DNA of 64,000 nt from positions 1-64,000 of the forward strand of contig WTXG01000109.1 in assembly GCA_022496185.1 (NCBI GenBank), in the 5' to 3' direction. Shown here piece by piece: positions 4,327 through 63,188 of this stretch (position 1 is the stretch's first letter; every line of letters begins with the position of its first letter). The translations under genes were made by a program, and so were the position numbers. Origin of the DNA: Multifurca ochricompacta (taxonomy: Eukaryota > Basidiomycota > Agaricomycetes > Russulales > Russulaceae). The notes below the pieces were generated by a model, which saw only the letters and a program-made list of their open reading frames with translations, was not told the origin of the DNA and searched no databases.

Positions 4327-4332
4327 TGTGAG

Positions 4333-4343: not shown

Positions 4344-4345
4344 GA

Positions 4346-36507: not shown

Positions 36508-37009
36508 TGTTGAACACAGAAGATGTTCGGTGATGCTTCAGGCATCAGGTGATCAGATTAGCTACTTGTAGATTAGATTAGATACCGGAGTTTCGGACTA
36601 TTTACATTATCATTATTACTTTCTTTCTCACATTCCGCAGTAGCTGACTGATGCACTATGTAGCATGTGATTTCTGTAGTAGCCAATGGCCTTTCTCCCT
36701 CATGTTTGTTTGTTTGGACTTTGTCTGGCACTTGTGGACTTATTCCCAGTGCACAGACCACCTCTTGATTAGTATATAAGGGTGTCTGTTTCGTCTCTTA
36801 CACTTCAGAGTTTCTTCTACCTCTGAAGTGTAAGTCCCTTCTCTTACTTACTACCATACCTTGAGACTAACGCTCTTAGTAGAACTTGTCTTTGTCTAGG
36901 TCAGTAGTATAGTATAATAGAGTTTCTTCTACCTCTGAAGTAACTTGTCTTTGTCTAGCTTAACCCGCTAACCTTACAGTCAGTATGCTGCGCACATGCC
37001 TGTTTCACA
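36508..37009 (+). repeat. 5' LTR of Co-A1
   Basis: 502 bp, TGTTGAAC...TTTCACA. TATA box TATATAAGGG at about 36,773, followed by the ACTTCAGAG/CTCTGAAGT hairpin (about 36,801-36,830). Part of the hairpin sequence recurs near 36,919-36,940. Confidence 0.93.
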
Positions 37010-37028
37010 GGTTATGGGCCCTGGGCAC
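37010..37028 (+). promoter_or_regulatory. Copia PBS, half-tRNA-iMet type
   Basis: GGTTATGGGCCCTGGGCAC begins directly after the LTR and is complementary to the anticodon arm of initiator tRNA-Met. Confidence 0.78.
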
Positions 37029-37942
37029 GCTTAACTGATCTGTTATTTTCTTTTGATCAGTCCAAACCTTTCTTCAAGCTCACCAGCTTCAAGACCTCAT
37101 CTTTTTCCCAATCAGTCTTACAGTGAGCTTCGATTTCTTTTACACTTGCCCTTAACTGTCCACAAGGTGGTGCGCTTTATGTGCCCACCTTGATCTGTCT
37201 GGCTAGTCCCTCAGGGGATTCTTGCAAGAGGTGATGAGGGACCCTAAGCGGGTGAAACACCTTGAGTTCCTCATGTGCGCTCTAAGTAAATAGTATTCAT
37301 AGTTATAGCTGGGTTTTTGTCCCATCCATAGACTTAGTAGGCCACTTGCCCAGAAGGCTTGGGGCTATAGGTTCAGTCAATGCTTGGCTCGATCTGTAAG
37401 CCAGGTTTAGTGACCTGCTGGTAGAGTTTAGGGTCTAGAACAAGGCATGGGTAGTCACTCCCATGACGCTTGGGCTCGATACAAGTAGGCTTGAACTACT
37501 ATAGTATATACACAGTAGCTAGAGGGTTTCGTCTCTGGGCAGAAGTACCCGCTGCTTTCATTGGGGGTTCGCCCCAACCAGAGGAAACCTAATAGTCTAC
37601 TATAGTCATGGCCCCAATCATCTAGGGCTTAATCATGGACTCCACCACCAGCACTAGAGGAAGGGCTCTATACCCTTTGTCTCTAGTGGAACTTGCGGTT
37701 GGCTCCTCCATGACATGACTCCCCATCTATTTACACAATGTCCCCCTGATGTGGGCTTAGGACTTGTTGTAGATGGCGCTAGGTAGCCTACTATACTACT
37801 TAGAAGTCGCACATCAGAGGCAGGACTTTTTTAAGTTCTGAAGCATAGCGCCACAGAATGGACGGGCCCTCTTAAATGAGACCTGGACAACTGGTTCTAA
37901 CTGCTCCTTGGAACCAGGATCAACCTTTTTAAAATCATCTCA
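37029..37942 (+). other. Copia 5' leader
   Basis: About 910 nt without a long frame, conserved in Co-A2 and Co-A3. It probably carries packaging or translation signals. It includes repeated CTATAGT words. Confidence 0.6.
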
Positions 37943-39811
37943 ATGTCTTCCATCGTCTTCCCCCCTACCTTCAAGTTTGACAAGCTTGATGGCTCCAACT
38001 GGCAGCAGTGGTCGGTGTCCTTCACTGCCCTGCTGAGGATTAATGGGATGAAGAGGCACATCACGCATGATGCCCCTGAGTTCCTTAATCCTCCCAAGCC
38101 AGAGGATGGAGAAAAGGACGACGAGTACGCCAAGCGTTTTGCGCTTTGGTCTGAGCCTATGTACCTGGAATGGAACAGGGTGGAGGAAGTCCTTATGGGA
38201 GTTCTGGTGATGGTCACATCACCGGAAACATACTCCCAAATTGCCTCTGACAGAACTTATCCTTCTGTCAATGCCAAATATGAGCGTTTGGAATCGCTCT
38301 ATGGCTCAGTAGGTAGCATGGCCACCTACAACTTGTGGTGTTCTGTGTCCTCCTTCCACTTGGAAGAAGGCAAAATGTTCAGACCCCAGTTGCAGCGTGT
38401 GTTGGATGTGAGGAGTACTCTCAAGGAAAATGGGATGGAGATCTCTGATCTCCAGTTGAGCTTTATATTGCTCCAATCCCTACCTCCATCCTACTCAGCC
38501 ATTGCTGGCTATATCCTGGCGTCAGGTCCTCCTGACCGCCTTTCCCCTCAGGACCTTGTTCAAAGGTTCCTAAATGAGGAGAGCCGACTAGCCGGCCCCG
38601 CAGGAAGTGGTGTTGGGGCTGCCCTTAATAAGGCAGCCCATGTCAACAAAAACAAAAACAAAAAACAAGTATCTTTCACGCCACCTCCTGCAGGTGCATC
38701 ATCGTCCAATGATGTCACCTGCTTCTATTGTCAGAAGCCGGGCCACAAGGCTAATGAATGTCGGCAAAGGAAACAGGACAGAGCCAATGCTGATGCAGGC
38801 AAAAAGGGCAACAAGAGGAAGGGGCAAGGCCCCAGTGTACACAATAACTCCACACAAGTAGCTACCATAGTTAATGGTAGTGGCAGAATACAGGAGGTGC
38901 ATGAGACACCTCGCATTTCACTTTATACTATGACCGAACATATGCAAGAAGTCGATGATGGCAGCAATCCTTGGATGATGGACAGCGGAGCCACCACTCA
39001 TTTTACACCATACTTAGATGATTTCTCTGAGTACTTCCCACACAAGGGACACTCAGTGACAATTGGTGATGGCTCAGTAGTCCAAGTCGAAGGAACGGGC
39101 AAAGTTATACTCAAAACTCGAAACAACTATGAGTTAGAGTTAAATAACGTCTTCTATATGCCTGGTAGTGAAAGAATACTATCGACAAGCTGTATCACAG
39201 ACAAAGGCGGCTCAGTGGAATTTTCTCCATCTGAGGTCAAGATAAAGTACAATAATGCAATTATAGCGGAAGGTGTCAAGGCTATGGGACTCTATTGGGT
39301 CTTTGGGAAAACCATGCAGAATCTAAATACTGCTTCCCACAAATCTGCATCAAGTAGCCTTGATACCTGGCATTTGCGCATGGGTCATATGTCAAAAGAG
39401 GCCCTCAAAAGACATGCTCCTAAGGCTGTAAAAGGCCTTAATATAGATAATAGCCAAGTGGAAGACAAGCCGTGTTATGGCTGTGAAATGGGAAAATCAC
39501 ACCGTCTTCCATTCCCTCCCTCTCAAAAGAGAGCTTCAGCACCTTTGGAAGTCATTCATAGTGACCTAGTTGGTCCTTTGCAATCCACTTCAATTCAAGG
39601 GAACCTATACTTCGCCACTTTCATAGACGACTTTAGCAGAACTGCTTTAGTTGTTGCCATGAAAGCTAAAAGTGAATTTACATCGGTCTTCTGTAACATT
39701 AAGGCATTCCTGGAAAATAAAACAGACAGGAAAATAAAGACCTTACATACAGACCGAGGTGGCGAATTTGTCAATAGGGAGCTGAAGTCAATACTTGAGA
39801 GGCTGGCATAG
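37943..39811 (+). CDS. gag-pol: Copia Gag-protease-integrase (N-terminal polyprotein)
   Basis: The 622-codon frame begins MSSIVFPPTFKFDKLDGSNW. Gag (UBN2-like core) spans about residues 1-250. The zinc knuckle CFYCQKPGHKANEC is at about 263-276. The aspartic protease is DSGATTHFTPYLDDFS (about 349-364). The GAG-pre-integrase block (YLRMGHM-like, here LRMGHMSKEALKRH) is at about 475. The integrase core has CYGCEMGKSH, then HSDLVGPL with the first catalytic Asp, FIDDFSRTALV, and TDRGGEFVN with the second Asp. One base is missing near 39,800, giving an early stop; the next frame resumes at 39,820. Without that deletion integrase would continue, so this copy is only slightly damaged here. Confidence 0.88.
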   Translation: MSSIVFPPTFKFDKLDGSNWQQWSVSFTALLRINGMKRHITHDAPEFLNPPKPEDGEKDDEYAKRFALWSEPMYLEWNRVEEVLMGVLVMVTSPETYSQIASDRTYPSVNAKYERLESLYGSVGSMATYNLWCSVSSFHLEEGKMFRPQLQRVLDVRSTLKENGMEISDLQLSFILLQSLPPSYSAIAGYILASGPPDRLSPQDLVQRFLNEESRLAGPAGSGVGAALNKAAHVNKNKNKKQVSFTPPPAGASSSNDVTCFYCQKPGHKANECRQRKQDRANADAGKKGNKRKGQGPSVHNNSTQVATIVNGSGRIQEVHETPRISLYTMTEHMQEVDDGSNPWMMDSGATTHFTPYLDDFSEYFPHKGHSVTIGDGSVVQVEGTGKVILKTRNNYELELNNVFYMPGSERILSTSCITDKGGSVEFSPSEVKIKYNNAIIAEGVKAMGLYWVFGKTMQNLNTASHKSASSSLDTWHLRMGHMSKEALKRHAPKAVKGLNIDNSQVEDKPCYGCEMGKSHRLPFPPSQKRASAPLEVIHSDLVGPLQSTSIQGNLYFATFIDDFSRTALVVAMKAKSEFTSVFCNIKAFLENKTDRKIKTLHTDRGGEFVNRELKSILERLA

Positions 39812-39819
39812 AGCATAAA

Positions 39820-40530
39820 TTGACAATGCCATATTCCCCACAACAGAACGGAAGGGCTGAAAGGTTCAACAGAACCATCATGGAAAAGGCCACCAGCATG
39901 CTGCATCATGCTGGTCTTTCCCTTGGTTTCTGGGAATGTGCAGTGCGAACAGCCTGTCACATATACAATAGAACGCCTATCCGCTCTAATAAGTGGAGGA
40001 CACCGCTAGAACTTCTGGATGGGGACATTCCAGACGTTTCTTACTTTAAAATATTTGGCTGCTTAGCCTATTATACTGTCCCAGAGGACAAAAGATGTAA
40101 ACTGGATCACAAAGCCAGGGAGACAGTCTTTGTTGGGTATGCACCCCACTCTAAAGGATATCTTCTTTGGGATATGCATACTCGATCCTTCGTATTGTCA
40201 AGAGATGTGACATTTGATGAGGGGTCCTTCCCATCCAACCTTGCCAAGGACAGCAAGGGAAAACAAAAGGAAAAAGTTACGCCTTTTGTACTAGAAGTTG
40301 AGAGGCCTGTCCAGCCTCAACCAGCAATAGCCACAGTTCCTCAGGCTCCTGAAGACAAGGACGCCGAGGTTGAGGAACAGGAGGTAGTGGAACCTCCTCA
40401 AATAAATCCTGAGCCTACCACACCCGATAATGAACTTGATACACACGATCAAACTATTATCAGACACCTCCATCCCAAATCATGGAACCATCAGAACTCC
40501 CCAGAGAACCCGTGCCAAGAGACAATCTAA
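39820..40530 (+). pseudogene. Copia integrase C-terminal part
   Basis: Starts in MPYSPQQNGRAERFNRTIME, which holds the third catalytic acidic residue (Glu in RAER) of the DDE core. It continues through GYAPHSKGYLLWDMHTRSFV to an acidic, Pro-rich linker (EDKDAEVEEQEVVEPPQ). It is separated from the upstream frame by a single-base deletion and ends through another frameshift near 40,500. Confidence 0.82.
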
Positions 40531-40692
40531 GAAGAATGTCAGCAGACTTCCCCAACCAGTCTTTACCAGGGAAAGTCCATGCTCTCAACAACGTGACAGG
40601 GCTGTGCAGGAAGATTTAGATCTTGATACTGCCCGTCCCAAACGTTCACGTCGCATGAACCTCGATTTTATAATGAGGATAATGCTGAGTTC

Positions 40693-42290
40693 ATGCAGGG
40701 TTCTTCCAGACTTGGGCATATGGAGTTGCTAAATGCCGCAGGAGTCTCTTATAGAGATCCCCTGACTTTTCAGGAGGCAATGCAGTCTGAAAATGCCAGT
40801 GAATGGCTTGAGGCATGTAAATATGAAATTGATGCCTTAGATAAATTAAATGTGTGGCGCCTTGAAGATCTTCCAAAAGGAAGAAGGCAGTCAAGTCAAA
40901 ATGGGTCTTTAAGCTGAAACCAGACAGACGGTTTCGTGCTAGGCTCGTGGCAAAAGGTTTCACCCAAATAGAAGGGTGGACTTCGATGAAACATTCTCCC
41001 AGTCGCCAGATTTGAATCACTTAGATTTACTAGCGCTAGCTACGCTAGAGGATTGGGAAATCCACCAGATGGATGTCAAATCGGCATTCCTACATGGCGA
41101 TCTGGATGAAGAGATTTATATGGAGCAACCAGTTGGTTTCGTCGTTGCTGGTCAAGAATCCAAAGTTTGCAGGCTACAAAAAGTGTTATATGGCCTCAAA
41201 CAAGCTCCCGAGCATGGAATCTACAATTCCATGCAGTTCTTAATGAACTGGGTTTACTCGGACATACTCTGATGCAGGAGTATATGTGTTTCATCAAAAG
41301 GAGGAGGGTGATTCACTGTATGTCATTCTCTATGTAGATGACATAACTATACTTGGGTCTTCCAATGATAGAATAACATGGCTGAAGTCGTCTCTATCTA
41401 GTCGATATGAGATGACTGACTTGGGAGAAATCCAGTCATACCTTGGAGTTAACATCACCAGGGATCGTCCTAATAAGACGCTGGAAATTGATCAAGCAGC
41501 CTATGTTTTGTCTATTATTGAGAAGTTTGGGATGAGGGATTCCAACCGAGTATATACTCCTCTTCCCTCTGGCACTGATGTACATCTGGTCAAGTTTGAA
41601 GGCCAGGCATCTACTTCTGAAATTAAGAAGTACCAACAGCTGATGGGGTCTCTGCTATGGGTGCAGATTGGAAGCAGACCCGATATCAGTTTTGCTGTGG
41701 CGCGCCTTAGCCAATATGCTTCCAACCCCTCTCAAGATCATATGCGACTTGCAAAATATGTCTTAAAGTATTTAATAGTACAAAAGACTGCAAGTTGCGG
41801 TATTCTGGAGGGAATGGGGAGAGTGGCCTTCATGGCTTTGCAGATTCCTCATGGGGAGATCAAGAGGACTGCCACTCTACCTCAGGCTACGTGTTTTTCT
41901 TGGCAAATGGTGCCATTTCATGGTGTTCCAGAAAACAGAAAACAGTAGCACAGTCCACCACTGAAGCCGAATATATGAGCCTCTCTGAGGCTGCAAATCA
42001 GGCAGCGTGGTATAGGACTTTATGGAGGAATAGGGTATGAGGTATCCTCCCCTATACTACTCCACTGTGACAATAAGGGTGCCGTAGATTTGGCATTAAA
42101 CCCAGTCACAGGAAGGCGGTCAAAGCATATACCCATTAAGTACCATGCCATTAGGGGGTACATTGAATCGCACATAATCGAGTTAGTGCGAACCCCCACA
42201 GGTGAGATGCTGGCAGATGGCTTCACTAAGTCTCTACCAAGAGCATCATTTGAAACCATGGTAAATGGACTTGGACTTATGCTGAAATGA
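40693..42290 (+). pseudogene. Copia reverse transcriptase and RNase H, frameshifted
   Basis: RT pieces: ASEWLEACKYEIDALDKLNV (40,800), QMDVKSAFLHGDLDEEIYME (41,065) and VILYVDDITILGSS with the YVDD active site (41,325). RNase H: GLHGFADSSWGDQED (41,830), QSTTEAEYMSLSEAANQAAW (41,955), KHIPIKYHAIRGYIESH (42,125). Frames break near 40,917, 41,272, 41,780 and 42,030. Confidence 0.85.
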
Positions 42291-43358
42291 GAGAGCTGGA
42301 ATCTGGAGACTTTGTATACCAGTTTCACTTTCCCACCATGAGAAAACTCTTAACTTCGAGAGTGATGCAAGAGGTGTGTATGGTTTCAGTTTGCATAAGC
42401 GAATCACCGCGATATGCCTCTGAACACCATACCTCTCTCGCACTCAGAAGAGTTAGAGAAATTGGATCTCTGGCTGGCGATATGCTCATTTAATTGTGAT
42501 GGCAGTGTGCTCATCCAACTCATTTCCCATCTATGACCAGATGCCTTCAGCATGGAGGGATGTTGAACACAGAAGATGTTCGGTGATGCTTCAGGCATCA
42601 GGTGATTAGATTAGCTACTTGTAGATTAGATTAGATACCGGAGTTTCGGACTATTTACATTATCATTATTACTTTCTTTCTCACATTCCGCAGTAGCTGA
42701 CTGATGCACTATGTAGCATGTGATTTCTGTAGTAGCCAATGGCCTTTCTCCCTCATGTTTTTGTTTGGACTTTGTCGGCACTTGTGGACTTATTCCCAGT
42801 GCACAGACCACCTCTTGATTAGTATATAAGGGTGTCTGTTTCGTCTCTTACACTTCAGAGTTTCTTCTACCTCTGAAGTGTAAGTCCTTCTCTTACTTAC
42901 TACCATACCTTGAGACTAACGCTCTTAGTAGAACTTGTCTTTGTCTAGGTCAGTAGTATAGTATACAGTGCCTCACAAAACTGAGTCAATGTTTTGCACT
43001 TTTGCACTGTTTGTTGAATATTGCACAACCAAAACAAATATAAACAAAGTCTTGGTGTATAATAAAAGGTACAAGATAAGGGCTATGTAATGCAAAAATG
43101 ATTATGTAATTCTGATCAAAACCTGTGGAGCTATGCCCATTTCAAATTGGGGACTCATTGACTCAGTTTTGTGAGGGGGTATCAGAAATATCAGAATCTG
43201 ATGCTCCACCAAATGTACAGCAACCAATCCTTAATATATGGTTACCATAGTTATCTTAATACTGATGGGACCTGGAATAGAGCTATTTAATCATGGTTTA
43301 CATTCCCAGAATATTATAATTTCCCAATGCACCCCACCTCCTCTGCCAGAAAGAAAAC

Positions 43359-43718
43359 ATGCTCTCTCTGGCCTCTGAAGGTCATTCCACTCACACTATT
43401 GCCTCCAGACTCAGCCTCAGCCAGTCCACAGTCTCTAGGACACTCAGAATCCTCCTTCCCAACCATCAGTCACCTCATTTTGGTCATCTTTCCAAGCTCT
43501 CTGCTACCTCTGAACATGCTATCATGATACAAATCACCACAGGAAAGGTTGCCAATGCTGTCCAGGCCACAAAGCACATCAATTCCATCATCCCCAACCA
43601 TGTCTCTTCACAAACTGTGCATTGGGTTCTTAAACAACATTCATTCAAGGCTGTAACAAAGAAGAAAAGGCCACTACTCTCTGCAGTACATTGCAAGAAG
43701 CACTGGCCTTTGCTTTGA
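43359..43718 (+). pseudogene. Tc1-like transposase N-terminal half, left arm
   Basis: 119 codons: helix-turn-helix DNA-binding region (MLSLASEGHSTHTIASRLSL, SQSTVSRTLR), then a linker with SSQTVHWVLKQHSFKAVTKK. In the spacer the frame is followed by RVIWSAETKI, where the usual WSDETK of Tc1 has Ala in place of the first catalytic Asp. The C-terminal catalytic half is absent. It could bind DNA but not catalyse transposition. Confidence 0.75.
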
Positions 43719-43826
43719 AGTACCAAAAATGAGCTATGGAGGACTGGAGAGGGTGATTTGGTCAGCTGAGACCAAAATAACAGGTTTGGGTCAGATGCCA
43801 GTCCTCCACAGTCCACTCTCTGTACT

Positions 43827-44185
43827 TCAAAGCAAAGGCCAGTGCTTCTTGCAATGTACTGCAGAGAGTAGTGGCCTTTTCTTCTTTGTTACAGCCTTGA
43901 ATGAATGTTGTTTAAGAACCCAATGCACAGTTTGTGAAGAGACATGGTTGGGGATGATGGAATTGATGTGCTTTGTGGCCTGGACAGCATTGGCAACCTT
44001 TCCTGTGGTGATTTGTATCATGATAGCATGTTCAGAGGTAGCAGAGAGCTTGGAAAGATGACCAAAATGAGGTGACTGATGGTTGGGAAGGAGATTCTGA
44101 GTGTCCTAGAGACTGTGGACTGGCTGAGGCTGAGTCTGGAGGCAATAGTGTGAGTGGAATGACCTTCAGAGGCCAGAGAGAGCAT
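43827..44185 (-). pseudogene. Tc1-like transposase N-terminal half, right arm (inverted copy)
   Basis: Mirror copy of 43,359-43,718 with the same HTH sequence (a one-base indel lies just upstream of the ATG). The two copies point towards each other. Confidence 0.75.
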
Positions 44186-44679
44186 GTTTTCTTTCTGAGC
44201 AGAGGAGGTGGGGTGCATTGGGAAATTATAATATTCTGGGAATGTAAACCATGATTAAATAGCTCTATTCCAGGTCCCATCAATATTAAGATAACTATGG
44301 TAACCATATATTAAGGATTGGTTGCTGTACATTTGGTGGAGCATCAGATTCTGATATTTCTGATACCCCCTCACAAAACTGAGTCAATGAGTCCCTGATT
44401 TGAAATGGGCATAGCTCCACAGGTTTTGATCAGAATTACATAATCATTTTGCATTACATAGCCCTTATCTTGTACCTTTTATTATACACCAAGACTTTGT
44501 TTATATTTGTTTTGTTGGTGCAATATTCAACAAACAGTGCAAAAGTGCAAAACATTGACTCAGTTTTGTGAGGCACTGTAATAGAGTTTCTTCTACCTCT
44601 GAAGTAACTTGTCTTTGTCTAGCTTAACCCGCTAACCTTACAGTCAGTATGCTGCGCACATGCCTGTTTCACACCAACA

Positions 44680-44934: not shown

Positions 44935-45061
44935 TAGTGATGTTCCGGCCCGGCTTGGCCCAAAAGCCGCGGCTTTGGCTCGGCCTGAGGCGGCTCCGGC
45001 TTTCCTGAAGTCTGGGCCGAGCCAAAGCCGCCACAGACGGCTTGGCCCTGGCCCGGCTTGG

Positions 45062-45640
45062 TGTTACGTCTGGTGTGAGACGTTCTGCACGACTTGTGCG
45101 ACAGCGTTGTGCGTGTGTTCAGATAAGAGGTCAATAAGGCCTCTTGGAGTTTCAAGATGAATGAGTCAAAGTCAACGGGGCTGCTCCCGAGTGACAATGT
45201 TGAGTGGAAAGTGCCAAAAGCACTGAGACGGTCGAGTCAAGGGTTTCAAGGGGAAGTCCAGAAGACAAACACCGATGTATTCAATAAGTCGAGTCTGAGG
45301 TCTACAAGGTAGTTACAGTGGACTTATATACGTAATCGAATGGGCGTCTATAGATAAGATAACGGAGTCAAGTGGGCCCGAATATACGAAAGCGGAGGGC
45401 GTAAAGCCTGGCTTCTGATAGGGGATTAAGTAAGTGTCCGGTTGTAAAGATAAGGGATAAGATAAGAGTCCAAACACAAGTACAGTAGTACAAACATAGG
45501 CAAAGGCGATCACGGGGAAGGGAGCAGGGCACGTGAAGGATCCCACGATGGAGACGTGATCTGATAATGTAAAGTAGGCGGCAAAGAGGGGTCGTCGTTA
45601 GGTAGGAGAAAGAAAATAGGAAGAGATGGGGTTCGTAACA
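45062..45640 (-). repeat. 3' LTR of Gy-2
   Basis: 579 bp, TGTTACG...CGTAACA. TATA box on the minus strand at about 45,331-45,324. Confidence 0.94.
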
Positions 45641-45671
45641 TCACCCCCTCTTCTGGTTCTAGCAGACCCGG

Positions 45672-46955
45672 CTAGAAACGACTCGTACCGTCATCATCCT
45701 GTATCAACTCCAAGTAATCGTCGGCTACATTACGGTCATCCATCGTATAATTTTCCTTGTCCGAGTCTTGCGGACATTGATGGGTACGAAGGAACCCATA
45801 CGGGCCGCGCTGACCACATAGGTGGCACATGTCGTAGATCGGGCAGTCCAGCTCGCGGTGCCCTGAGTTGTGGCGGAGGCACTTGCCGCACCATCCCGAC
45901 GGATTGACGATCGTCGGGGCAACTCCTACACGGCAGAAGATGCAGAACCGGCTCCAATGAAGGTTGCTGCGACAATGCCGACACCACTTGCGGTTCAGGG
46001 GGCAGTTCCAGCTGATGTGATACTTGCTATCACATCGCCAGCACGTCTCTCCACGAGGGTTCTCATGCATGCGCGGCATCTCGAACCGGTTTGGCAGCAA
46101 CACAGGAGCGGCCCCCAATGATCGTGGGGGTAGGGGTCGAGCATATGTATCGGCGTACCTCTCGGCAATCGTCTGGTAGGCGTCTCCTATCTCCAGCCTC
46201 TTCCTGATCTCCACCAACTCCTGTTCCACCTGGAACATCCCGTTCGTCAGCCTTGCCATCATCTTCGCATGCTCTTTATACTGTCGGTTAAGCGTTGTGT
46301 GCAATGTCAAGTTCTTCCGCAGTCTCATCACCTCGGCCTTGAGACGCGGAAGGCGCATGTCGTTGAGCACCTCGTCGATGGCAAAAGCACGAGAGTCTTC
46401 AGCAGCCAGATGTCCAAGCTGCTCGTCAGTCATGGTGTGGTGAAGACGTCCTGTATACCTTTCCTCTAAATAGACCGGGGCCCCATAGACGGGGCCATCT
46501 TTCTTCATACATCCAGCGACATCCATTCCTCCATTGGTATAGAATATATACTTGGCAATGGCAGTGGTCCCGTCTGCCATGGTGATCTCGAGAGGGAAAT
46601 AGGTTGACGAGTTGGGATTATTGGTGAAGAAAGGGAATTCGGGCACCTCATCATCCAACTCCATGCCCAGCAGATCGTTCAGGTGCGGCTCTTCGCTGTG
46701 CTTGAAGTCATCATTCGGGTTGGGGGACTGGTTTTTGACTCGGGCCTCGGCAGCTTCGTAGTCGATCGGGGAGGAGGGACGTGTGGAGGGATGGGTAGAA
46801 GGAAAGTTTTCAACCACTACAGTGGTGGCGGTGAAAGCATCGACGGCGGCGTTGGCAGCGATAAAAGACATAATAGATTGGATGGTGTTAGAACGTTGCT
46901 GGGGGAGCATGTACTGAAGAAATGGATGGGGCTTCGGGGCGTTTCTTTTAAACAT
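45672..46955 (-). CDS. Gypsy ORF3: zinc-knuckle protein downstream of integrase
   Basis: Complete 427-codon frame between the integrase and the polypurine tract. Residues 1-100 are variable and Ser/Pro-rich. A conserved domain covers about 103-165 (VPEFPFFTNNPNSSTYFPLE, AKYIFYTNGGMDVAGC, GPVYGAPVYLEE). A charged helical segment spans about 190-270. Then come CX2CX4HX4C knuckles at 305-318 and 325-338, a CX2CX6HX4C variant at 356-371 and a fourth Cys/His cluster at 377-394. The element also has an ordinary gag with its own knuckle, so this is an extra protein, probably RNA- or DNA-binding. The ATG overlaps the integrase stop (see 46,948). The same ORF is present in Gy-1a and, diverged, in Gy-3, which implies a selected role. 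No membrane segment argues against an env-like protein. Confidence 0.85.
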   Translation of the reverse strand: MFKRNAPKPHPFLQYMLPQQRSNTIQSIMSFIAANAAVDAFTATTVVVENFPSTHPSTRPSSPIDYEAAEARVKNQSPNPNDDFKHSEEPHLNDLLGMELDDEVPEFPFFTNNPNSSTYFPLEITMADGTTAIAKYIFYTNGGMDVAGCMKKDGPVYGAPVYLEERYTGRLHHTMTDEQLGHLAAEDSRAFAIDEVLNDMRLPRLKAEVMRLRKNLTLHTTLNRQYKEHAKMMARLTNGMFQVEQELVEIRKRLEIGDAYQTIAERYADTYARPLPPRSLGAAPVLLPNRFEMPRMHENPRGETCWRCDSKYHISWNCPLNRKWCRHCRSNLHWSRFCIFCRVGVAPTIVNPSGWCGKCLRHNSGHRELDCPIYDMCHLCGQRGPYGFLRTHQCPQDSDKENYTMDDRNVADDYLELIQDDDGTSRF

Positions 46956-48133
46956 TTCTAGGCGCTTCTGGGTGCCGAATGTGGAACTCCGAGATAAGGG
47001 TCGGAGCAGAGATATCCCCGGCGGGTTCCCACGAATTGTCAGAGTCTGGGAATCCCTTCCACTTGATCAGGTAATATAGTTTGCGCCCTCGGCCTTGTCG
47101 CTTGGAGTCTAAGACACGCTCCACTTCCCATTCTTCTTCGCCATCGATAAGGTCAGGCGGGGGTCTCGGGAAGTTCTCTCCATGAATGGAGGTTTCCTTG
47201 TAAGGGGTCAGAAGCTTGGCATGGAAGACTGGATGGATCTTCCATTTCGGCGGTAACTGCAACTTGTAAGACACATCTGACAGCTTCCTTGTGATCCGGA
47301 AGGGTCCGTGACGTCGGGGTGCCAATTTGGTCGAGGGGTGTGACGTGTGAATGTTCCTACCCTCGAGCCATACCCAGTCATTGGTCTGATAAGGTGTGAA
47401 TGTGCTTGGCTGTGCTGCCAGAAGCTGTTGCGCCTTTACCAGATTTTCATTGGCTGATTTCCGCAGCTCCTCCCATTGGCCGATTCGTTCGGTTACTGAC
47501 GGGACGTTGATAGGCTTATCTGTCCACGTGGTGCGTGGAGTCCAGCCCATGATAAGGGAGAAGGGGGTGGATTTGTCGTTCCATTGGGCCATGAGTTGTG
47601 GGCGAATTCCGCCGTCGACAGCCATTCTGCCCAGTCGTCCTGCCTGCCGTTGCACCAAAACCGGAGATACTGTTCTAGCCATTGATTCGTCCGCTCGGAC
47701 TGTCCGTCTGTCTGTGGATGGTATGCCGTCGAGATGTTCTGCGTGATGTCCAGCGTCTTGCATAAGGCCCTCGCAAACGCCGATGTGAAACGGGTGTCTC
47801 GGTCAGAGATGATCCTTTTAGGGAGTCCGTAGTGACGGTATACATGGTTCAGGTATAGTTTCGCCACTCCTTCGGCTGTGATAGTTTCGTTGCAGGGAAT
47901 GAAGAGGGCCGCTTGGAGCAATCATGATCCGTGACTGTAAGGATAGTGTCAAAGCCTTGTGATTTGGGTAATTTGACAATGAAGTCCATGGCAATGGTCT
48001 GGAAAGGAGTCGAGGTACTGGGAGTGATGGGGAGCATTGGTGGGATTTTTGGGTGCGTGTTCACCTTGTTTGCTTGACATGATGCGCATCCCGTACATAG
48101 TTCTCGATGTCTTTCTTCATATTGGGCCACCAA
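46948..48133 (-). pseudogene. Gypsy integrase with chromodomain, frameshifted
   Basis: Zinc-binding/core start (CASCQANKVNTHPKIPPMLP, 48,080), the catalytic region FQTIAMDFIVKLPKSQGFD and ITDHD (first Asp), RHYGLPKRIISDRDTRFTS (second Asp), and TAYHPQTDGQSERTNQWLEQ (Glu). The C-terminal chromodomain is KLYYLIKWKGFPDSDNSWEP (about 47,060), which marks a chromovirus and should direct integration to modified chromatin. It breaks near 47,900 and 47,750. The last frame ends at TAA 46,950-46,948. Confidence 0.88.
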
Positions 48134-48300
48134 TAGTCTCGTTTGGTCAGGGCATAGGTGTTGGCAATGCCTGGATGGCCGGCGGAGGGAAGGTCGTGAT
48201 GAAAATGGATCACCCCCCTCTTAATGTTGTCGCCACCGGTGACAACGAGTCGGTCCCCGTCCTTCCACCACAGACCGTGATCTTCTTTAGATTATGAGCA

Positions 48301-49220
48301 TCAGCCCATGAACGGCACAGGTCCTGGTTCATGTTTTGGGAACTTGTGCCCAAAGGTCCATGTCGTGGAGACTGACAACGGCCGTCTTGGCAAATACTTC
48401 CTCTGGGAGGACAGTGATGTCGTTATTGTCGTCCTCCCCTGTATGCATGTCTGGTCTGCGCGATAATGCATCTGCTCTAGCGTTCTGACTCCCGCAATGT
48501 GTTTCAGTGTGAAGTTGTACTCTTCCAGTTCCAAGACTTCTCGTGCCACACGTCGACTGATCTTATGGGGTTCTTTCCAGTATAACAGGTTGGAATGATC
48601 AGTATAGATGATGGTCTTGTGGGGGTTCCTGCCAAGTAGGGTCGCCAGTGTCGTAATGCCTTGACGATGGCTAAGAGCTCTCTGTCCCAGATGTCGTAGT
48701 TTCTTTCGGCTGGGGAGAAGGTTTCGGAGTAGTATGCCACTGGGTGAAGCACTTGTGCGGCATCTCTCTGGTATAATACTGCCCCGTTCGCAAAGTGTGA
48801 GGCGTCCACCTCTACCTCAAAGGGGTGGCTCAGATCTGGTTGGATAAGTACTGGTTCCGAGCCGACGAGGTCCCTAATCTGTTCAAACGCCTGCTGCTGT
48901 GCGGCATCCCAATGCCATGGTACGTCCTTTTTCAGTAGGTCGTTCAGTGGTCGCGCTATGCCTGAAAATCCCTTGACGAATCGTCGGTAGAAGTTACAGA
49001 ATCCGATGAACGATCGGACATCCTTGACGCAGGTCGGCACGGGCCACTCCCGGATTCCCTGTACTTTCACGGGATCCATGCGCACTTGTCCTCCTTCCAA
49101 GATGACCCCTAGATACTCAACGCTCCGTTGTTCAAAGGAGCATTTGGCAGGTTTGAGGTAGAGATCATGTTCTTGCAGTATATCCAGTACTTGATGTACA
49201 CGACGTCGGTGGTGGTCCAA
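48301..49220 (-). pseudogene. Gypsy RT thumb and RNase H, frameshifted
   Basis: KDVRSFIGFCNFYRRFVKGF, then the RNase H start VEVDASHFANGAVLYQRDA and AVAYYSETFSPAERNYDIWD-like blocks, with REVLELEEYNFTLKHIAG further on. Frameshifts occur near 49,200 and 48,520. Confidence 0.82.
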
Positions 49221-50286
49221 ATCATCTGTGTGGCTACTAGGATGTCATCCATGTAGACCACTACTTCTCCTGTGAGAATGAGATCGCGGAAGATGTGGTT
49301 CATCATAGACTGGAACGTTGCCGGCGAGTTTGTAAGACCAAAGAACATAACATTGGGTTCGAACAACCCTTGATTTGTTTTGAACGCCGCCTTGCACTGG
49401 TCACCTTCCTTGATTCTAACGTTATTGTAGCCCCATCGCACGTCCATCTTCGAGAAGAGGGACTTATCCCTCATAGTGTCAATGAGTTCGGAGATGAGCG
49501 GCAGGGGGTAGGCATTTTTACGGTGTATGTGTTAATTCGCCGGTAATCCTGAACCGGTCGCAGCTTGCCGTCCTTCTTTTTGATGAAGAAGAAGGGCGAG
49601 GCGTACTGCGACTTGGATGGGCGAATATATCCTTTTGCCAAGTGTTCTTCAAGGAACTCTGTCAGTGCCACCTGCTCGGACTGGGACAGCGGATAGATTT
49701 TGCAATCTATTGCTGTAGGTGTATCGGGGAGTAGGTCTATGGCGTGGTCCCATGGTCTGGAAGGTGGAAAGCGCTGGGATTCTTCTTCGGAGAATACCTT
49801 CCAATGCCTATGGTAAACACTCGGCACTATGTCGCTGTATGTCTTTTCCGTCTGCCCTTGTATTGCCTTTTGGGCTAACTCTGATGCTTTAGTGGCGTAA
49901 CAGTGACCTGGGTCTTCCTCTCCTGTACTCGTGGCTTTTATTGCCGGATGTCTGACTGCGTAGTCATAGCCTATGGACGTGATGACAGTGGGATATGATT
50001 CTTTGTCCATTGTCGCGTCAGCCCAGTTGATCTTGGGCTCAAACGCGGCAAGCCACGGGTATCCTAAGATAAGATCTTCGTCTCCTAGGTCTGTAATCAG
50101 GAAACGAATGTTCTTTGTGGTTTCTCCAACCTGGACTTTAGATCCGTGTAATGAGTGATTTTCCAGCGCGGTTGGCCGTTCCATCAATGTTCCAAATGTT
50201 CTTTTCCTGGGGAAGTGCCAGCCGTCCCAACCCATCGTCTTGATTAGTCGTGGGTGAATAAAATTGTCTGTGGCTCCAGAGTCCAC
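49109..50286 (-). pseudogene. Gypsy protease and reverse transcriptase, frameshifted
   Basis: Protease DSGATDNFIHPRL (50,283). [54 protein letters not shown] and [12 protein letters not shown] one-base loss near 49,515 shifts the frame between the two RT parts, and another occurs at about 49,225. Confidence 0.87.
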
Positions 50287-50410
50287 TAAAATATCTCGAT
50301 CGGCCGTCCTCTGTGTAGTTTCAAAATGGACTGGTATTTTAATGACTTGAATCGACTAGCATACACAGAGGTAACATGGAGTGCTCGTGCCCAGGCCGAT
50401 GGGTTTGAGC

Positions 50411-51915
50411 CTAACAAAAATCCTTCTTCGCAAACGCCTTTTCTACTAATATGGCGCGCACTTCCTCGCTCTCCTTCATCATGTTGGCCCATATGTCCTG
50501 AGCCTTTTCTTCTTTTGATCGCTTGTCCACAGTGGGGGGTTGTTCTGAATGGGGTGTTCTGGTGCCACCGTGGCGACAGCAACTCGTGCTCCCTTCTTGG
50601 GACAGTCCCGGGACATATGTCCCAATGCTCTGCAACGGAAGCAGCGCCCTTCTTTCATTAGTGTCTGCCGCTCGTCTTCCGTAAGTGCTGCCGAGCTCGG
50701 GCTCGATCTGCAGAGGTATCCATAGCGTTTGGATCCCTCTGGCCATGTGGTGCGGGCTTCACTCCGAACGCTGCCTTCCACTGGTCTCGGGTTTTTCCCT
50801 TTTTGGTGTCAACTCCAAACCTTGTCTGGAAGTCAAGGTAGTCTTGTTGCTGCTCCGAGCAGCGTCAACCCAGGTGTCCCAGTCATGGGGGTGATGAAAC
50901 TGAATGATATTCTTGACCAGGGGGTTGGGCAAACCCTGTGAAAAGAGGTCTAACGTTGCCTCTTCGTCCGTGTCATAGCCGGCCCTGTTGGCTAGACTTC
51001 TGAACTTGGCGACGTATGCGTCGAGTTCTCCCTTCTCCATTCTAAGGGACTTTAATTCCCGGGCTGCCTTCTGCTTGGCCTGCCCATCCGTGAAGGCATC
51101 TTTAAACCGCTCAGCGATGGTCTCCCAAAGACCTTCACTAGTGGTGTGACGCCCACTTTTGACTTGTTCATTAGCCACTCCAACTGTTCCATGGTCCAGT
51201 CGTCAACCGCATCCCCCCGAATCAGGGAAAGGAACAGATTGGCTCGTTGAAATGGATTGACAATCTGTGGGACGTCATGGTTGAAGTTTTAAAGGTCGTG
51301 AACTCCAACATGAATTTTTTGCTCTGTGAGCGGTCCCCAGTGAACGTTTGGGAAGCACTCCTGACAATCGTCCGGACGGGGGGGGAATGTTTGGTGGTGC
51401 TGCCACTGGGGCTGGTGGGGCGGGGTCTGGGAGCTGGGCGGCATGGTGGACATGTTTTGGTAAAACGGGGTGACAGTGTTGGTGGATTGTATAGAGATCT
51501 GGGGAGTTGTCAAAGCAGGGGCTCTGAACGTGACAACTTCAGGTGCAACTGGGGCTGTAGACGACGCTAATACCAGTGCTTCTTCGCTAGGTTCTTCTAC
51601 GTACTCCTCTGGTTCGGAGTCCGTGACAATGGCCGGAGGGTTTTCTCTCCACGGGCCTAGTCCAAATTCAGGTGGGGCAGGTCTGGTTGTAACCCAAGAG
51701 TTTCGACTGTCCGAGTATCGGATACAATACCAAACTCTTTTCTCTTTGTCGTATTCTACCGGTTGGTATCTTCCGTCGTGATAGACGTAGTATCCAAACT
51801 CGGATTCAAAGTCTTTCCAGGCGGCAGAGCCAAGTACTTGCTGTGAAAGATTATTCTCGTCTCTGCGTTCGATGAGCTCTTCTCGGAAGAGGGTCTGACT
51901 GCGGCTGGAAGCCAC
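50411..51915 (-). pseudogene. gag: Gypsy gag, frameshifted
   Basis: Start MASSRSQTLFREELIERRDE (51,915), as in Gy-1b. The capsid-like part AYVAKFRSLANRAGYDTDEE is at about 51,020 and the nucleocapsid knuckle CFRCRALGHMSRDC at about 50,640. A frameshift near 51,290 and another near 50,740 disrupt it. Confidence 0.85.
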
Positions 51916-51921
51916 TGTGAG

Positions 51922-51932
51922 AGACTCGACTT
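51922..51932 (-). promoter_or_regulatory. Self-priming PBS of Gy-2
   Basis: Sense AAGTCGAGTCT, two bases after the 5' LTR, is the exact complement of AGACTCGACTT at plus-strand 52,159-52,169, which lies about 30-35 nt downstream of the LTR TATA box (52,197-52,204). Confidence 0.78.
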
Positions 51933-51934
51933 GA

Positions 51935-52513
51935 TGTTACGTCCGGTGTGAGACGTTCTGCACGACTTGTGCGACAGTGTTGTGCGTGTGTTCAGATAAG
52001 AGGTCAATAAGGCCTCTTGGAGTTTCAAGATGAATGAGTCAAAGTCAACGGGGCTGCTCCCGAGTGACAATGTTGAGTGGAAAGTGCCAAAAGCACTGAG
52101 ACGGTCGAGTCAAGGGTTTCAAGGGGAAGTCCAGAAGACAAACACCGATGTATTCAATAAGTCGAGTCTGAGGTCTACAAGGTAGTTACAGTGGACTTAT
52201 ATACGTAATCGAATGGGCGTCTATAGATAAGATAATGGAGTCAAGTGGGCCCGAATATACGAAAGCGGAGGGCGTAAAGCCTGGCTTCTGATAGGGGATT
52301 AAGTAAGTGTCCGGTTGTAAAGATAAGGGATAAGATAAGAGTCCAAACACAAGTACAGTAGTACAAACATAGGCAAAGGCGATCACGGGGAAGGGAGCAG
52401 GGCACGTGAAGGATCCCACGATGGAGACGTGATCTGATAATGTAAAGTAGGCGGCAAAGAGGGGTCGTCGTTAGGTAGGAGAAAGAAAATAGGAAGAGAC
52501 GGGGTTCGTAACA
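51935..52513 (-). repeat. 5' LTR of Gy-2
   Basis: 579 bp. Carries the promoter TATATAAG (minus strand, plus 52,197-52,204) and the predicted RNA 5' end at 52,169. Confidence 0.94.
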
Positions 52514-52914
52514 CTTGGCCCAAGCCGTGGCTTTTGGCAGAGAAAATTTTATGACATATAACCAGTAGTTATAGTTCAGCTAATCCAAATCTGACTTAGT
52601 GTGTTACGTATTGCAAAGCTATATCGAAGAAAAAGTTTGAAATGCCGCGATAAACATGATCACGTGACCCAAATCAACCACTTTGTGATTAGATTTCTAC
52701 TGATTTTGACAATTGCTATTGCACTTGTATGTGCTGTTGAAAGCCGTGGCCTGAGCCGGCGGCTTTGGCTTTTAGTTTCTCTGAGCCGGGCCAAAGCCCT
52801 TGCTGGGCCGTCACAACGGCCTGGCTTGGCCCGGCCCAAACAGGCCCGGCTTGGCCTGGCTTCCGGCTTTGAGCCCGGCCAGGCACATCACTATGTAAGG
52901 GAATTGGATCTGTA

Positions 52915-53418
52915 TGTTGAACACAGAAGATGTTCGGTGATGCTTCAGGCATCAGGTGATCAGATTAGCTACTTTGTAGATTAGATTAGATACTGGAGTT
53001 TCGGACTTTTTACATTATCATTATTACTCTTTTTCTCACATTCTGCAGTAGCTGACTGATGCATCATATAACATGTGATTTCTGTAATAGCCAATAGCTT
53101 TTCTCCCTCATGTTTATTGTTTGGACTTTATCCAGCACGTGTGGACTTATTCCCAGTGTGCACAGACCATCCCTTGGGGTATATAAGGGTGTCTGTTTCG
53201 ACCTCTACACTTCAGAGTTTTCTTCACCTCTGAAGTGTAAGTCCCTTCTACATTACTCTCTACTTATACCTTTGACTAACCGCTCTCTGTAGCTAACTTG
53301 TCTTATAGGTCAGTAGTATAGTAATAGAGTTTTCTTCACCTCTGAAGTCTAACTTGTCTTATAGCTTAACCCGCTAACACTCTACAGTCAGTATGCTGCG
53401 CCTCATGCCTGTTCGACA
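52915..53418 (+). repeat. 5' LTR of Co-A2
   Basis: 504 bp, TGTTGAAC...TTCGACA; TATA box TATATAAGGG at about 53,179 and the usual ACTTCAGAG hairpin. The PBS GGTTATGGGCCCTGGGCAC follows at 53,419-53,437. Confidence 0.92.
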
Positions 53419-54305
53419 GGTTATGGGCCCTGGGCACACTTTACTGATCTGTGTCTTTTGATCAGTCCAACCTTTCTTCAAGCTCACTGCTTCAAGACTC
53501 TTCTTCCCAATCACTGTCACAGTGAGCTTTGATTTCTTTTCACTTGCCCTTAACTGTCCACAAGGTGGTGCGCTTCATGTGCCCACCTTGATCTGTCTGG
53601 CTAGTCCCTTAGGGGATTCTTGCAAGAGGTGATGAGGGACCCTAAGCGGGTGAAACACCTTGAGTTCCTCATGTGCACTCTAAGTAAATAGTATTCTTAG
53701 TTGTAGCTGGGTTTTCATCCCATCCATAGTCTTAGTAGGCCACTTGCCCAGAAGGCTTGGGGCTATAGGTTCAGTCAATGCTTGGCTCGATCCATAAGCC
53801 AGGTTTAGCAACCTGCAGGTAGAGTTTAGGGTCTAGAACAAGGCATGGGTAGTCACTCCCATGACACTTGGGCTCGATACAAGTAGGCTTGAACTACTAT
53901 AGTATTTACACAGTAGCTAGAAGGTCTTGTCTCTGGGCAGAAGTATCTGCTGCCATAGTTGGGGGTCCACCCCAACCAGAGGAGACCTGATAGTCTACTA
54001 TAGTCATGGCCCCAATCATCTAGGGCTTAATCATGGACTCCACCACTGGCACTAGAGGAAGGGCTCTATACCCTTTGTCTCTAGTGGAACTTGTGGTTGG
54101 CTCCTCCATGACATGACTCCCCATCTATTTACACAATGTCCCCCTGATGTGGGCTTAGGACTTGTTGTAGATGGTGCTAGACAGTCTACTATACTACTTA
54201 GAAGTTGCACATCAGAGGCAGGACTTTTTTAAGTTCTGAAGCATAGCGCCACAGAATGGACAGGCCCTCTTAAATGAGACCTGGACAACTGGTTCTAACT
54301 GCTCC

Positions 54306-55520
54306 TTGGAACCAGGATCAAATCTTTTTACATCTCAAATGTCTTCCATTGTATTCCCCCCCACCTTCAAGTTTGATAAACTTGATGGCTCCAACTGGCA
54401 GCAATGGTCGGTGTCGTTCACTGCCTTGCTCAGGATAAATGGGATGAAGAGGCATATTACACATGATGCCCCTGAGTTCCTGAATCCGCTGAAGCCAGAG
54501 GATGGAGAGAAGGATGAGGAGTATGCCAAACGCTTCGCACTTTGGTCGGAGCCTATGTACCTGGAATGGAACAGGGTGGAGGAAGTCCTCATGGGAGTTC
54601 TGGTGATGGTAGTATCATCAGAAACATACTCCCAGATTGCCTCTGACAGAACTTATCCTTCTGTCAATGCCAAGTATGAGCAATTGGAATCACTCTATGG
54701 CTCAGTAGGTAGCATGGCCACCTACAACTTGTGGTGTTCTGTATCCTCCTTCTGCTTGGAAGAAGGAAAGCAATTCAGACCCCAGTTGCAGCATGTGTTG
54801 GATGTGAGGAGTACCCTCAAGGAAAATGGGATGGAGATCTCTGGTCTCCAGTTGAGCTTTATTTTGCTCCAATCCCTGCCTCCATCCTACAATGCCATTG
54901 CTGGCTCAATCCTGGCATCAGGTCCTCCTGATCGCCTTTCCCCTCAGGACCTTGTACAAAGGTTCCTAAATGAGGAAAGCCAACTTGCTGGCCCCACAGG
55001 AAGTGGTGTTGGGGCTGCCCTTAACAAGGCAGCCCATGTCAACAAAAACAAAAACAAAAAAGTAACTTTCACACCACAACCTGCAGGTGCATCATTGTCC
55101 AATGATGTCACCTGCTTCTATTGCCAGAAGCCAGGCCACAAGGCAAATGAATGTCAGCAAAGGAAACAGGACAGAGCCAATGCTGATGCAGGCAAAAAGG
55201 GCAACAAGAGGAAGGGGCAAGGCCCCAGTGTACAAACAAACTCCACACAAGTAGCTACCATAGTTAATGGTAGTGGCAGAATACAGGAGGTGCATGAGAC
55301 ACCTTGCATTTCACTCCATTCCTTTTCTAGAGCATGGGTTAGGGTCTTACTTAAGGTCCCTTTGCTGGAGTGCGTGTGGGCCAACATGGTAGCAGCACAT
55401 CGTCTACTCTGTGCCTTTGACCCCCTAGAAAGGAAATTGGGAGAGTTTGCATGCACGGTTGCATGTGTGTGGGGGCATGTTGACACAAGTGTAGTGCTGC
55501 ATGATGCAACTCTCACATGA
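54306..55520 (+). CDS. gag: Copia Gag, truncated and fused to foreign sequence
   Basis: 404-codon open frame beginning MEPGSNLFTSQMSSIVFPPT. Gag is intact through the zinc knuckle CFYCQKPGHKANEC and GKKGNKRKGQGPSVQTNS to about residue 337. From about 55,316 the remaining 68 codons are translated from the foreign tandem-repeat segment (SRAWVRVLLKVPLL). Protease, integrase and RT are absent. An intact Gag frame in a pol-less unit fits a non-autonomous element that could be mobilised in trans. Confidence 0.75.
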   Translation: MEPGSNLFTSQMSSIVFPPTFKFDKLDGSNWQQWSVSFTALLRINGMKRHITHDAPEFLNPLKPEDGEKDEEYAKRFALWSEPMYLEWNRVEEVLMGVLVMVVSSETYSQIASDRTYPSVNAKYEQLESLYGSVGSMATYNLWCSVSSFCLEEGKQFRPQLQHVLDVRSTLKENGMEISGLQLSFILLQSLPPSYNAIAGSILASGPPDRLSPQDLVQRFLNEESQLAGPTGSGVGAALNKAAHVNKNKNKKVTFTPQPAGASLSNDVTCFYCQKPGHKANECQQRKQDRANADAGKKGNKRKGQGPSVQTNSTQVATIVNGSGRIQEVHETPCISLHSFSRAWVRVLLKVPLLECVWANMVAAHRLLCAFDPLERKLGEFACTVACVWGHVDTSVVLHDATLT

Positions 55521-55699
55521 CCTTGGTATATAAGGTTATGCTCCATGTAGAACCCAGGCTGTGTAGCTCAGTGGTTAGAGCACTGGACCCGGATTGTCCA
55601 GAGGTCTTGGGTTCAATCCCCAATGTGGCCATTCCTTTTCTAGAGCATGGGTTAGGGTCTTACTTAAGGTCCCTTTGCCGGAGTGCATGTGGGCCAACA
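55316..55699. repeat. 71-bp direct repeats flanking a tRNA-like module
   Basis: Copies at 55,316-55,386 and 55,629-55,699 (period 313 bp), both starting CCATTCCTTTTCTAGAGC and ending GGGCCAACA, differ at a few bases. Read on the minus strand the copies begin TGTTGGCCC, like a copia LTR start. Confidence 0.85.
55557..55630 (+). tRNA. tRNA-like sequence, probable SINE/pseudo-tRNA module
   Basis: Folds as a cloverleaf: acceptor GGCTGTG with TGTGGCC (several G-U pairs), D arm GCTC/GAGC with A box TAGCTCAGTGG, anticodon stem CTGGAC/GTCCAG with a 7-nt loop CCGGATT, and T arm TTGGG/CCCAA with B box GGTTCAATCCC. The loop lacks U33, so a decoding tRNA is unlikely. A TATATAAG lies about 30 nt upstream. 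Best read as a tRNA-derived pol III promoter module within a retroelement. Confidence 0.55.
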
Positions 55700-62247: not shown

Positions 62248-62489
62248 CAGTGGGTCAAAAAACTGTCCCGATGTTTGCACCATTTCTAGTATTCACTCTA
62301 TAGCACCTCAGCATTTAGGAATCTGGTTATGGTGTGGCTGTATGTCTGAAAGCCCTGCTTCCTGGCTACCATGCCCAATTTGGATCAAAGAGATTGGCCA
62401 TGATATAAGCATTTTATGATCAAATCAAATCAATCAATCATCGGGACGGTTTTTTGACCCACATTTTAAATCCACTATCTGCCCAATTA

Positions 62490-62900
62490 CTCCTTTTTTT
62501 CACCCCTTTTTGCCTTGGTAACTCCTTGAATCCTTTTAGTCATCCTTTCTATAACCTTTTGCCATCATTCTGGTGCATTTTTATTCCACTCCTCCACCAC
62601 CCTCTCCCACAACTCAGGTATCCCCTTGACTGGTTAAGAACCTTCTTCAGATCCACCCAGAGGTGTCCAATGGGGCTAATATTTCAAGGGATTGGGCTAT
62701 CCATACCAGGATTCAATATTCCTGTCTTAAAACTGCTGGCTTGCCTTCTTGGAATTGTGTTTTGGGTCATTGTCCCACTGAAACATGCTTTCACCCTCCA
62801 CCATTTCTTACTTTTCAAACCTTTCCACCACTCTGCCATCCAAAATATCACAGTACTGGCATGGATTCATGATCCCATAAACCCCCATAAGCATTCCTAG
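62490..62900 (-). pseudogene. Tc1-like transposase C-terminal half, left arm (inverted copy)
   Basis: Mirror image of 63,189-63,600, reading on the minus strand away from the centre with the same WDNDPKHNSKK motif. The plus-strand frames over it are antisense. Confidence 0.68.
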
Positions 62901-63188
62901 TCCATTCCACCCCATACAAGACCAATACCATAAGTTCTTCCTCCTCCATGCTTGACTGTCAGGGTGGTGGTTCTGTCAGAGAGTGGTTACCATGAAAATT
63001 GGACAGTGGATGACTGGAAAAGGATCTTGTGGTCAGGTGAGACTATAATGAACAGAATTGGTTCAGACAGAAGGAGCTACACTTGGGAAAAATAAGGGAG
63101 AACCACCCTCTGACAGAACCACCACCCTGACAGTCAAGCATGGAGGAGGAAGAACTTATGGTATTGGTCTTGTATGGGGTGGAATGGA

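Follow-up and report, generated by a model that had tools for sequence, protein, structure and literature searches.

Chromoviruses are often treated as one- or two-ORF elements, and a long open frame found beyond pol in such an element raises the question of whether it is a gene and, if so, what its product does. We addressed this question for a frame designated ORF3, located on DNA of Multifurca ochricompacta (Russulaceae; assembly GCA_022496185.1, contig WTXG01000109.1, positions 1 to 64,000); this whole stretch of 64,000 nucleotides is referred to below as the window. Judged by sequence comparison, ORF3 is a true third gene in a group of chromoviruses of the M. ochricompacta genome.

Organization of the element carrying ORF3

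A sequence-only reading had placed a frame of 427 codons (45672–46955) between the end of the chromodomain and the 3′ LTR, and this frame was confirmed on the minus strand; its ATG at 46955 is non-conserved among copies. From stop to stop, ORF3 of the window copy comprises 464 codons. The best conserved ATG gives 45672–46871 (399 codons plus stop), and the next ATG upstream, conserved in one subfamily only, gives 45672–46910 (412 codons plus stop). On the same minus strand, the C-terminal open piece of pol (46948–47802; integrase tail, SH3_Tf2-1 and chromodomain by Pfam) ends at the stop codon TAA at 46950–46948. The rest of pol (47493–50355, minus) is spread over several frame-shifted open pieces, and gag (50759–51936, minus) is present as broken open pieces, with Retrotrans_gag detected in 50759–51202. 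Gag and pol are flanked by LTRs of 587 nt each (5′ LTR, 51927–52513; 3′ LTR, 45054–45640; both minus) that are 98.98% identical. The 3′ LTR begins 31 nt past the end of ORF3, with the polypurine tract region TAGAACCAGAAGAGGGGGTGA (45641–45661, minus) in the gap. ORF3 of the window copy is open, while gag and pol are split over several frames.

In copy L022, gag (510 codons), pol (1201 codons, −1 relative to the gag frame) and ORF3 (424 codons from stop to stop) are all open, and the LTRs are 99.66% identical and bordered by the target-site duplication ACCAC. Target-site duplications were present in copies L019, L022 and L028, and none was seen around the window copy. The Pfam scan of L022 pol detected the order PR-RT-RH-IN followed by a C-terminal chromodomain, and the L022 gag has its own CCHC (zf-CCHC, E 9e-5), in agreement with the normal gag described in the sequence-only reading. 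Both the LTR pair and the domain order identify the element carrying ORF3 as a chromovirus.

Two further ORF3 copies had been proposed within the window, and both are present, but at revised positions. The Gy-1a fragment, given as 1–847, lies at 3–794 on the plus strand, where the contig start truncates the frame. The Gy-3 copy, given as 59,580–60,840, lies at 60047–61051 on the minus strand with the chromodomain joined in frame to ORF3, and its knuckle stretch (59635–60096, minus) is out of frame.

Several other features of the element and its surroundings were observed. In all nine aligned copies, AGACTCGACTT, located downstream of the conserved LTR sequence TATATAAG, is the exact reverse complement of the primer-site sequence AAGTCGAGTCT; in the window copy, this self-complementary site involves the 5′ LTR (51927–52513) and the sequence immediately internal to it (about 51913–51933). 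Tf1 uses self-priming, and the arrangement suggests a Tf1-like self-priming rather than a tRNA primer for the element. In the gag of copy L022 (818–2347), the first Met is codon 162. Codons 1–120 are conserved as protein (pN/pS 0.07–0.14) and show few synonymous changes (pS 0.15–0.36), and codons 121–162 are looser (0.37); this gag, like that at 50759–51936 of the window, may have a non-AUG start or one created by splicing, and an RNA signal may overlap the region. At 1–4915 of the window, two element copies meet in opposite orientation, with the plus-strand ORF3 and LTR extending to about 1462 and the minus-strand copy lying from 1467 onwards. Large inverted repeats with arms 98–99% complementary (43095–44450 and 62246–63842) look like separate hairpin-forming repeats. 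Another repeat family with its own direct repeats occupies 5419–11935, 36508–42968 and 52914–55567; the frame at 54240–55520 in this family, with a single CCHC motif, is a possible gag.

Copies, lineages and selection

We searched the window's own assembly (53.8 Mb, 605 contigs) for ORF3. At least 98 matches to Gy-1 ORF3 were found with 87–100% identity, and no internal stop was present in 61 of the 98 listed (counted by eye). The Gy-3 ORF3 protein gave at least 120 matches (67–100% identity), and the Gy-1 and Gy-3 proteins are about 49–57% identical in long matches. Nearly every internal stop among the Gy-3 copies listed is TGA, fitting C-to-T change at CGA, and a process resembling methylation or RIP may be at work on these copies. 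A third type of ORF gave at least 108 matches at about 103 separate places, with identity down to 42% along its length. The claim that ORF3 is not restricted to one locus was thus borne out by hundreds of copies in three lineages.

With the SH3_Tf2-1 domain model, at least 150 chromovirus places were detected, at least 61 of which have a same-strand ORF3 match downstream; at the other 89, no ORF3 was found among the matches listed, from which Gy-3 matches were left out. Since these matches were omitted and five of the 89 places had ORF3 when read, 61 of 150 is an undercount of ORF3 carriers. At six consecutive SH3_Tf2-1 places picked blind to ORF3, the frame was found in all six and was unbroken in two.

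The third lineage (L053, L055, L056 and L057) is about 45–47% identical in its longest pol matches. Its 3′ ORF begins with MARIKRP in the three copies readable in full, and ends without zinc clusters in the three copies traced to the 3′ end. Similarity to ORF3 by tblastn was weak (E 8e-5 for L057 and 0.004 for L053; none for L055 and L056), and that by profile comparison was clear: hhalign gave E 1.2e-5 and probability 81 against ORF3 profile A1, and E 1.6e-7 and probability 94 over 161 columns against profile A4. These sequence profiles clearly support the homology of the knuckle-less ORF to ORF3.

In a fourth lineage (L039–L052 and L058; pol about 36–41% identical in the larger matches), no ORF3 was detected by tblastn at any of the 15 loci. 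As tblastn had missed two true third-lineage ORFs, five of these loci were read in three frames, and no long frame was found past pol. At 14 of the 15 loci (all except L048), the pol stop is located directly before the purine tract GAGAAGGGGGG and TACTGTCC, the expected LTR beginning. L054, which is outside this set (pol 43%), also gave no ORF3 match by tblastn. ORF3 is therefore present in at least three chromovirus lineages of one genome, in which another lineage exists without it. ORF3 had been proposed to define a chromovirus clade; it does occur in chromoviruses, but spans at least three lineages, including one that is distant in pol and lacks the knuckles. We define the ORF3 family by a core (FPF..N..S..P..APVY) followed by a helical segment, directly after a chromovirus pol; this definition covers Gy-1, Gy-3 and the third lineage, and also proteins P0009 and P0010 by protein alone.

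The latter two proteins came from searches beyond this genome. A single-sequence search of 5.8 billion proteins yielded no ORF3 relative, and a search with an 18-row ORF3 profile yielded three: P0008 from M. ochricompacta (70% identity over 41%), and P0009 and P0010, which are 38% and 34% identical to ORF3 across 79–87% of its length. P0009 and P0010 were derived from JGI sources (P0009 also from NCBI) on contigs of about 2 kb, which are probably metagenomic. All four zinc clusters are present in both, and all 16 zinc ligands are invariant in the seven-row alignment A4, down to 35% identity. A wider profile yielded six proteins: P0008 and five more from Multifurca, of which four belong to the third type. 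One scan of viral contigs detected no ORF3 relative.

With the 20 Gy-1 loci taken as the best ORF3 matches, a choice that lowers dN/dS and favours unbroken ORF3, the median pN/pS of 21 Gy-1 copies over 412 gap-free codons was 0.062 in frame (207 pairs). In the out-of-frame readings of the same copies, it was 1.88 for +1 (62 pairs) and 2.05 for +2 (one pair only), and these readings contained 11–26 stops per copy, compared with 0–1 in frame. Together with the 16 invariant ligands, the stop-laden out-of-frame readings indicate that ORF3 is not a chance frame. In distance classes above pS 0.05, the pN/pS was 0.07–0.13 for ORF3 and 0.15–0.18 for pol; for gag, the two largest classes gave 0.136 and 0.116, a class of 13 pairs gave 0.415 and a class of two pairs gave 0.054. 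The six pol-picked loci served as a check on the ORF3-picked sample, and the pol-picked sample gave 0.146 for ORF3 versus 0.249 for the pol end (about 80 pol codons; 27 pairs each).

The NG86 ratios are rough, as synonymous sites are near saturation, and the median dN/dS was 0.033 for ORF3, 0.071 for pol and 0.071 for gag in Gy-1, 0.090 for ORF3 and 0.066 for the pol end in Gy-3, and 0.118 for ORF3 and 0.085 for pol between Gy-3 and L037/L038; the comparison of whole Gy-1 and Gy-3 ORF3 is beyond NG86. A dN/dS near 1 was looked for and was missed by an order of magnitude, in line with the selected accessory ORF proposed earlier. These results show that ORF3 is under strong purifying selection. 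It is more constrained than gag and pol in Gy-1 only; in Gy-3, the constraint on ORF3 is slightly below that on the pol end.

Start of ORF3 and its relation to pol

The start of ORF3 was analysed in 27 Gy-1-type copies, 21 picked by ORF3 similarity and six picked by pol. The ATG at 46871 was found in all 27. The segment CAGTACATGCTC (46905–46916, minus) includes a CAG that follows a mostly pyrimidine stretch in 27/27 copies, and an ATG that is in frame in 22/27; the ATG at 46910 with the exact CAGTACATGCTC was detected in all 21 ORF3-picked copies and in one of the six pol-picked copies, the others having no in-frame ATG upstream of the 46871 one. CAGTACATGCTC was considered as an invariant ORF3 start and was rejected upon its absence from five of the six pol-picked copies, and the start was moved to 46871. 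The distance from the pol stop to this ATG is 72–77 nt in 20 of the 21 ORF3-picked copies (101 nt in L013) and 67–76 nt in the six pol-picked copies. The pol stop is TAA in the same proportion of ORF3-picked copies (20/21), with an earlier TGA in L013.

Relative to pol, ORF3 is in frame 0 in four, +1 in seven and +2 in ten of the ORF3-picked copies, and in frame 0 in one, +1 in three and +2 in two of the pol-picked copies. An unbroken ORF3 was found in 18/21 of the former and 2/6 of the latter. Since ORF3 occurs in all three frames relative to pol, no fixed frameshift produces it; programmed frameshifting or read-through was rejected as a general route to Gy-1 ORF3, as all three frames occur with unbroken ORF3. 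RNAalifold analysis of ten copies gave 26 pairs at the junction, none with compensatory change, and thus no conserved RNA structure. For Gy-1, two routes would fit. Ribosomes might resume scanning past the pol stop and start at the conserved ATG, or ORF3 might be translated from a spliced message. The pyrimidine-rich CAG (46914), about 42 nt upstream of the ATG and present in 27/27 copies, would fit a splice acceptor; inspection of the aligned leader by eye revealed no strong GTRNGT splice donor.

In Gy-3, the chromodomain and ORF3 are fused, with no stop separating them, in nine of the 11 copies examined, a sample taken mostly from rows without stops and thus favouring open fusion. The other two, L037 and L038, have a TAG after DK between the chromodomain and ORF3. 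One ATG is invariant in 11/11 of these Gy-3 copies.

Protein features and proposed role of ORF3

ORF3 opens with an acidic stretch, after which come the core of about 65 residues (46461–46655, minus; residues 86–150, numbered from the ATG at 46910), a basic helical segment (46131–46460, minus; residues 151–260) with a predicted long helix, four C/H clusters and an acidic tail. The whole protein is acidic (pI 5.9), the basic parts being the middle and knuckle regions only. The motifs claimed for the conserved block, PEFPFF, AKYIFYTN, GMDVAGC and GPVYGAPVYLEE, were all located. Four Cys/His clusters, named zinc knuckles, had also been described, and four clusters are indeed present on the minus strand, but only the first two (46002–46043 and 45942–45983) have the retroviral-type spacing CX2CX4HX4C, with ligands invariant in 7/7 sequences; clusters 3 (CX2CX6HX4C, 45843–45890) and 4 (CX2CX11HXC, 45774–45827) are variants.

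The comparison of ORF3 with Pfam gave nothing above the cut-offs, and zf-CCHC was absent from the matches of the window ORF3 at E up to 1 and from those of P0009, P0010 and the L035 protein at E up to 0.1. As no Pfam model matches, domain-based annotation would miss this protein. Against PDB, profile A4 matched LIN28 (E 1.4e-5), the retroviral nucleocapsid 2ihx (1e-4) and a Gag (1.6e-4) at clusters 1 and 2, and coiled coils weakly (0.05 and up) at the helical part. AlphaFold2 gave no usable model for full-length ORF3 (pLDDT 38). In the prediction for part of the protein, the core plus helix reached pLDDT 69, with a 54-residue helix at about 80–95, but the core stayed under 60. No structural match to the core was found with this poor model, and given its weakness no fold match is claimed. 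An origin of ORF3 from gag was considered and rejected, as hhalign aligned just 21 columns of one CCHC.

The similarity of clusters 1 and 2 to LIN28 and nucleocapsid knuckles supports nucleic-acid binding by ORF3, and to this extent the earlier proposal of a nucleic-acid-binding protein appears to hold. We lean towards reading ORF3 as the gene of an accessory protein that binds nucleic acids, forms oligomers and belongs to the replication complex, with either re-initiation or splicing as its route of expression. The protein would assemble via its helical segment, and its knuckles would bind RNA or single-stranded DNA; in the third lineage, binding might take place via a basic tail in place of the knuckles. 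Working alongside Gag and Pol, it would serve as a second nucleocapsid or a chaperone, either in the particle or in the pre-integration complex. As the third lineage keeps ORF3 without knuckles, these cannot be the whole function, and the knuckle-less type warns that the core and helix may carry the function common to all ORF3 types. Weighing against this reading, chromoviruses without ORF3 are numerous, including one lineage in the same genome; the lack of a zf-CCHC match, the core without structural match, the acidity of the whole protein and the slightly weaker constraint on Gy-3 ORF3 than on the pol end also count against it.

Other roles were considered. It is unlikely that ORF3 counters host defence, for instance by binding small or double-stranded RNA and thereby suppressing RNA silencing of the element. 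The accessory position, the strong selection and knuckles compatible with RNA binding are in its favour, and genome defence may act on Gy-3 elements, since their stops are nearly all TGA, as C-to-T mutation predicts. However, counter-defence proteins tend toward fast evolution, whereas the Gy-1 ORF3 changes more slowly than either gag or pol, and neither Pfam nor PDB showed homology of ORF3 to a known suppressor. An extension or subunit of Pol that assists integrase, such as in nuclear import or target-site choice, is likewise improbable. ORF3 directly follows the chromodomain, and the two share one open frame in 9/11 Gy-3 copies, mostly from stop-free rows, but no DNA-target or chromatin domain was recognized in ORF3 by Pfam. 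In addition, all 27 Gy-1 copies have a pol stop and their frame relation varies, so that no Gy-1 fusion protein is made as a rule. An env-like gene for cell-to-cell transfer, suggested by a position as in the plant and rotifer env-like ORFs described in the available parts of PMC7264820 and PMC5408684, is very improbable: ORF3 has zinc clusters and a helical segment instead, and hydropathy shows no membrane span (Kyte–Doolittle; highest 19-residue mean 1.46). A captured host gene useless to the element, or a chance open frame, had nothing in its favour among the matches listed and is extremely improbable in view of hundreds of copies, several lineages, relatives elsewhere and a pN/pS of 0.06; chance is refuted, and a host-gene origin long ago is possible.

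The accessory protein of the replication complex, in the reading that we prefer, may be part of a wider picture, proposed here tentatively: a large and old group of mushroom chromoviruses with a third essential gene, forming a new family (core and helix, with or without the four-cluster zinc array) with an ORF1p-like role, whose expression by re-initiation or splicing does not depend on the pol frame and has switched to Pol fusion in one branch. A third gene as constrained as gag and pol would mean that some part of replication has gone unnoticed in chromoviruses that are very abundant. Its role is testable by comparison, because one genome holds ORF3 types that differ in the presence of knuckles and in fusion to pol, next to a lineage that lacks ORF3.

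The element shares with known fungal chromoviruses the LTRs, a gag with a single CCHC, the order PR-RT-RH-IN, SH3_Tf2-1 and the chromodomain at the C-terminus, and differs in the selected third ORF after pol. In the accessible text of PMC2864245 (Novikova et al. 2010), the majority of full-length fungal Gypsy elements have no more than two ORFs. The Figure 3 legend in the same paper mentions an ‘add. ORF’ of unknown function in at least one of the elements drawn, which are fungal apart from one from a spikemoss; this ORF is a possible counterpart of ORF3. An aORF or ORF3 between pol and the 3′ LTR is described in the available parts of PMC7264820 and PMC5408684 for many LTR retrotransposons, in most copies, and the examples given fall into env-like, antisense, esterase and exonuclease types; ORF3 of this study is in sense, has no membrane span and has a core with zinc clusters. 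An antisense aORF of the Boty brtn type was rejected, as ORF3 runs in sense with gag-pol. In the literature searched, including the available parts of PMC3248453, PMC3411680, PMC12440569, PMC7264820 and PMC5408684, no description of an ORF3-like protein was found; given the ‘add. ORF’ in the part of PMC2864245 seen, the protein is not found in print, short of being new beyond doubt.

Clusters 1 and 2 agree in sequence and spacing with the knuckle pairs of retroviral nucleocapsid and LIN28, whereas ORF3 is located outside Gag and has two more clusters, both variant, in addition to the core and the helical segment. The LINE ORF1p is encoded by a separate ORF and combines a helical segment with a nucleic-acid-binding part, forming a coiled-coil trimer with an RRM and a CTD. 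Although ORF3 contains no RRM by Pfam, belongs to an LTR-type element and has a poor core model, it resembles ORF1p in being a separate ORF with a predicted long helix and a putative nucleic-acid-binding part.
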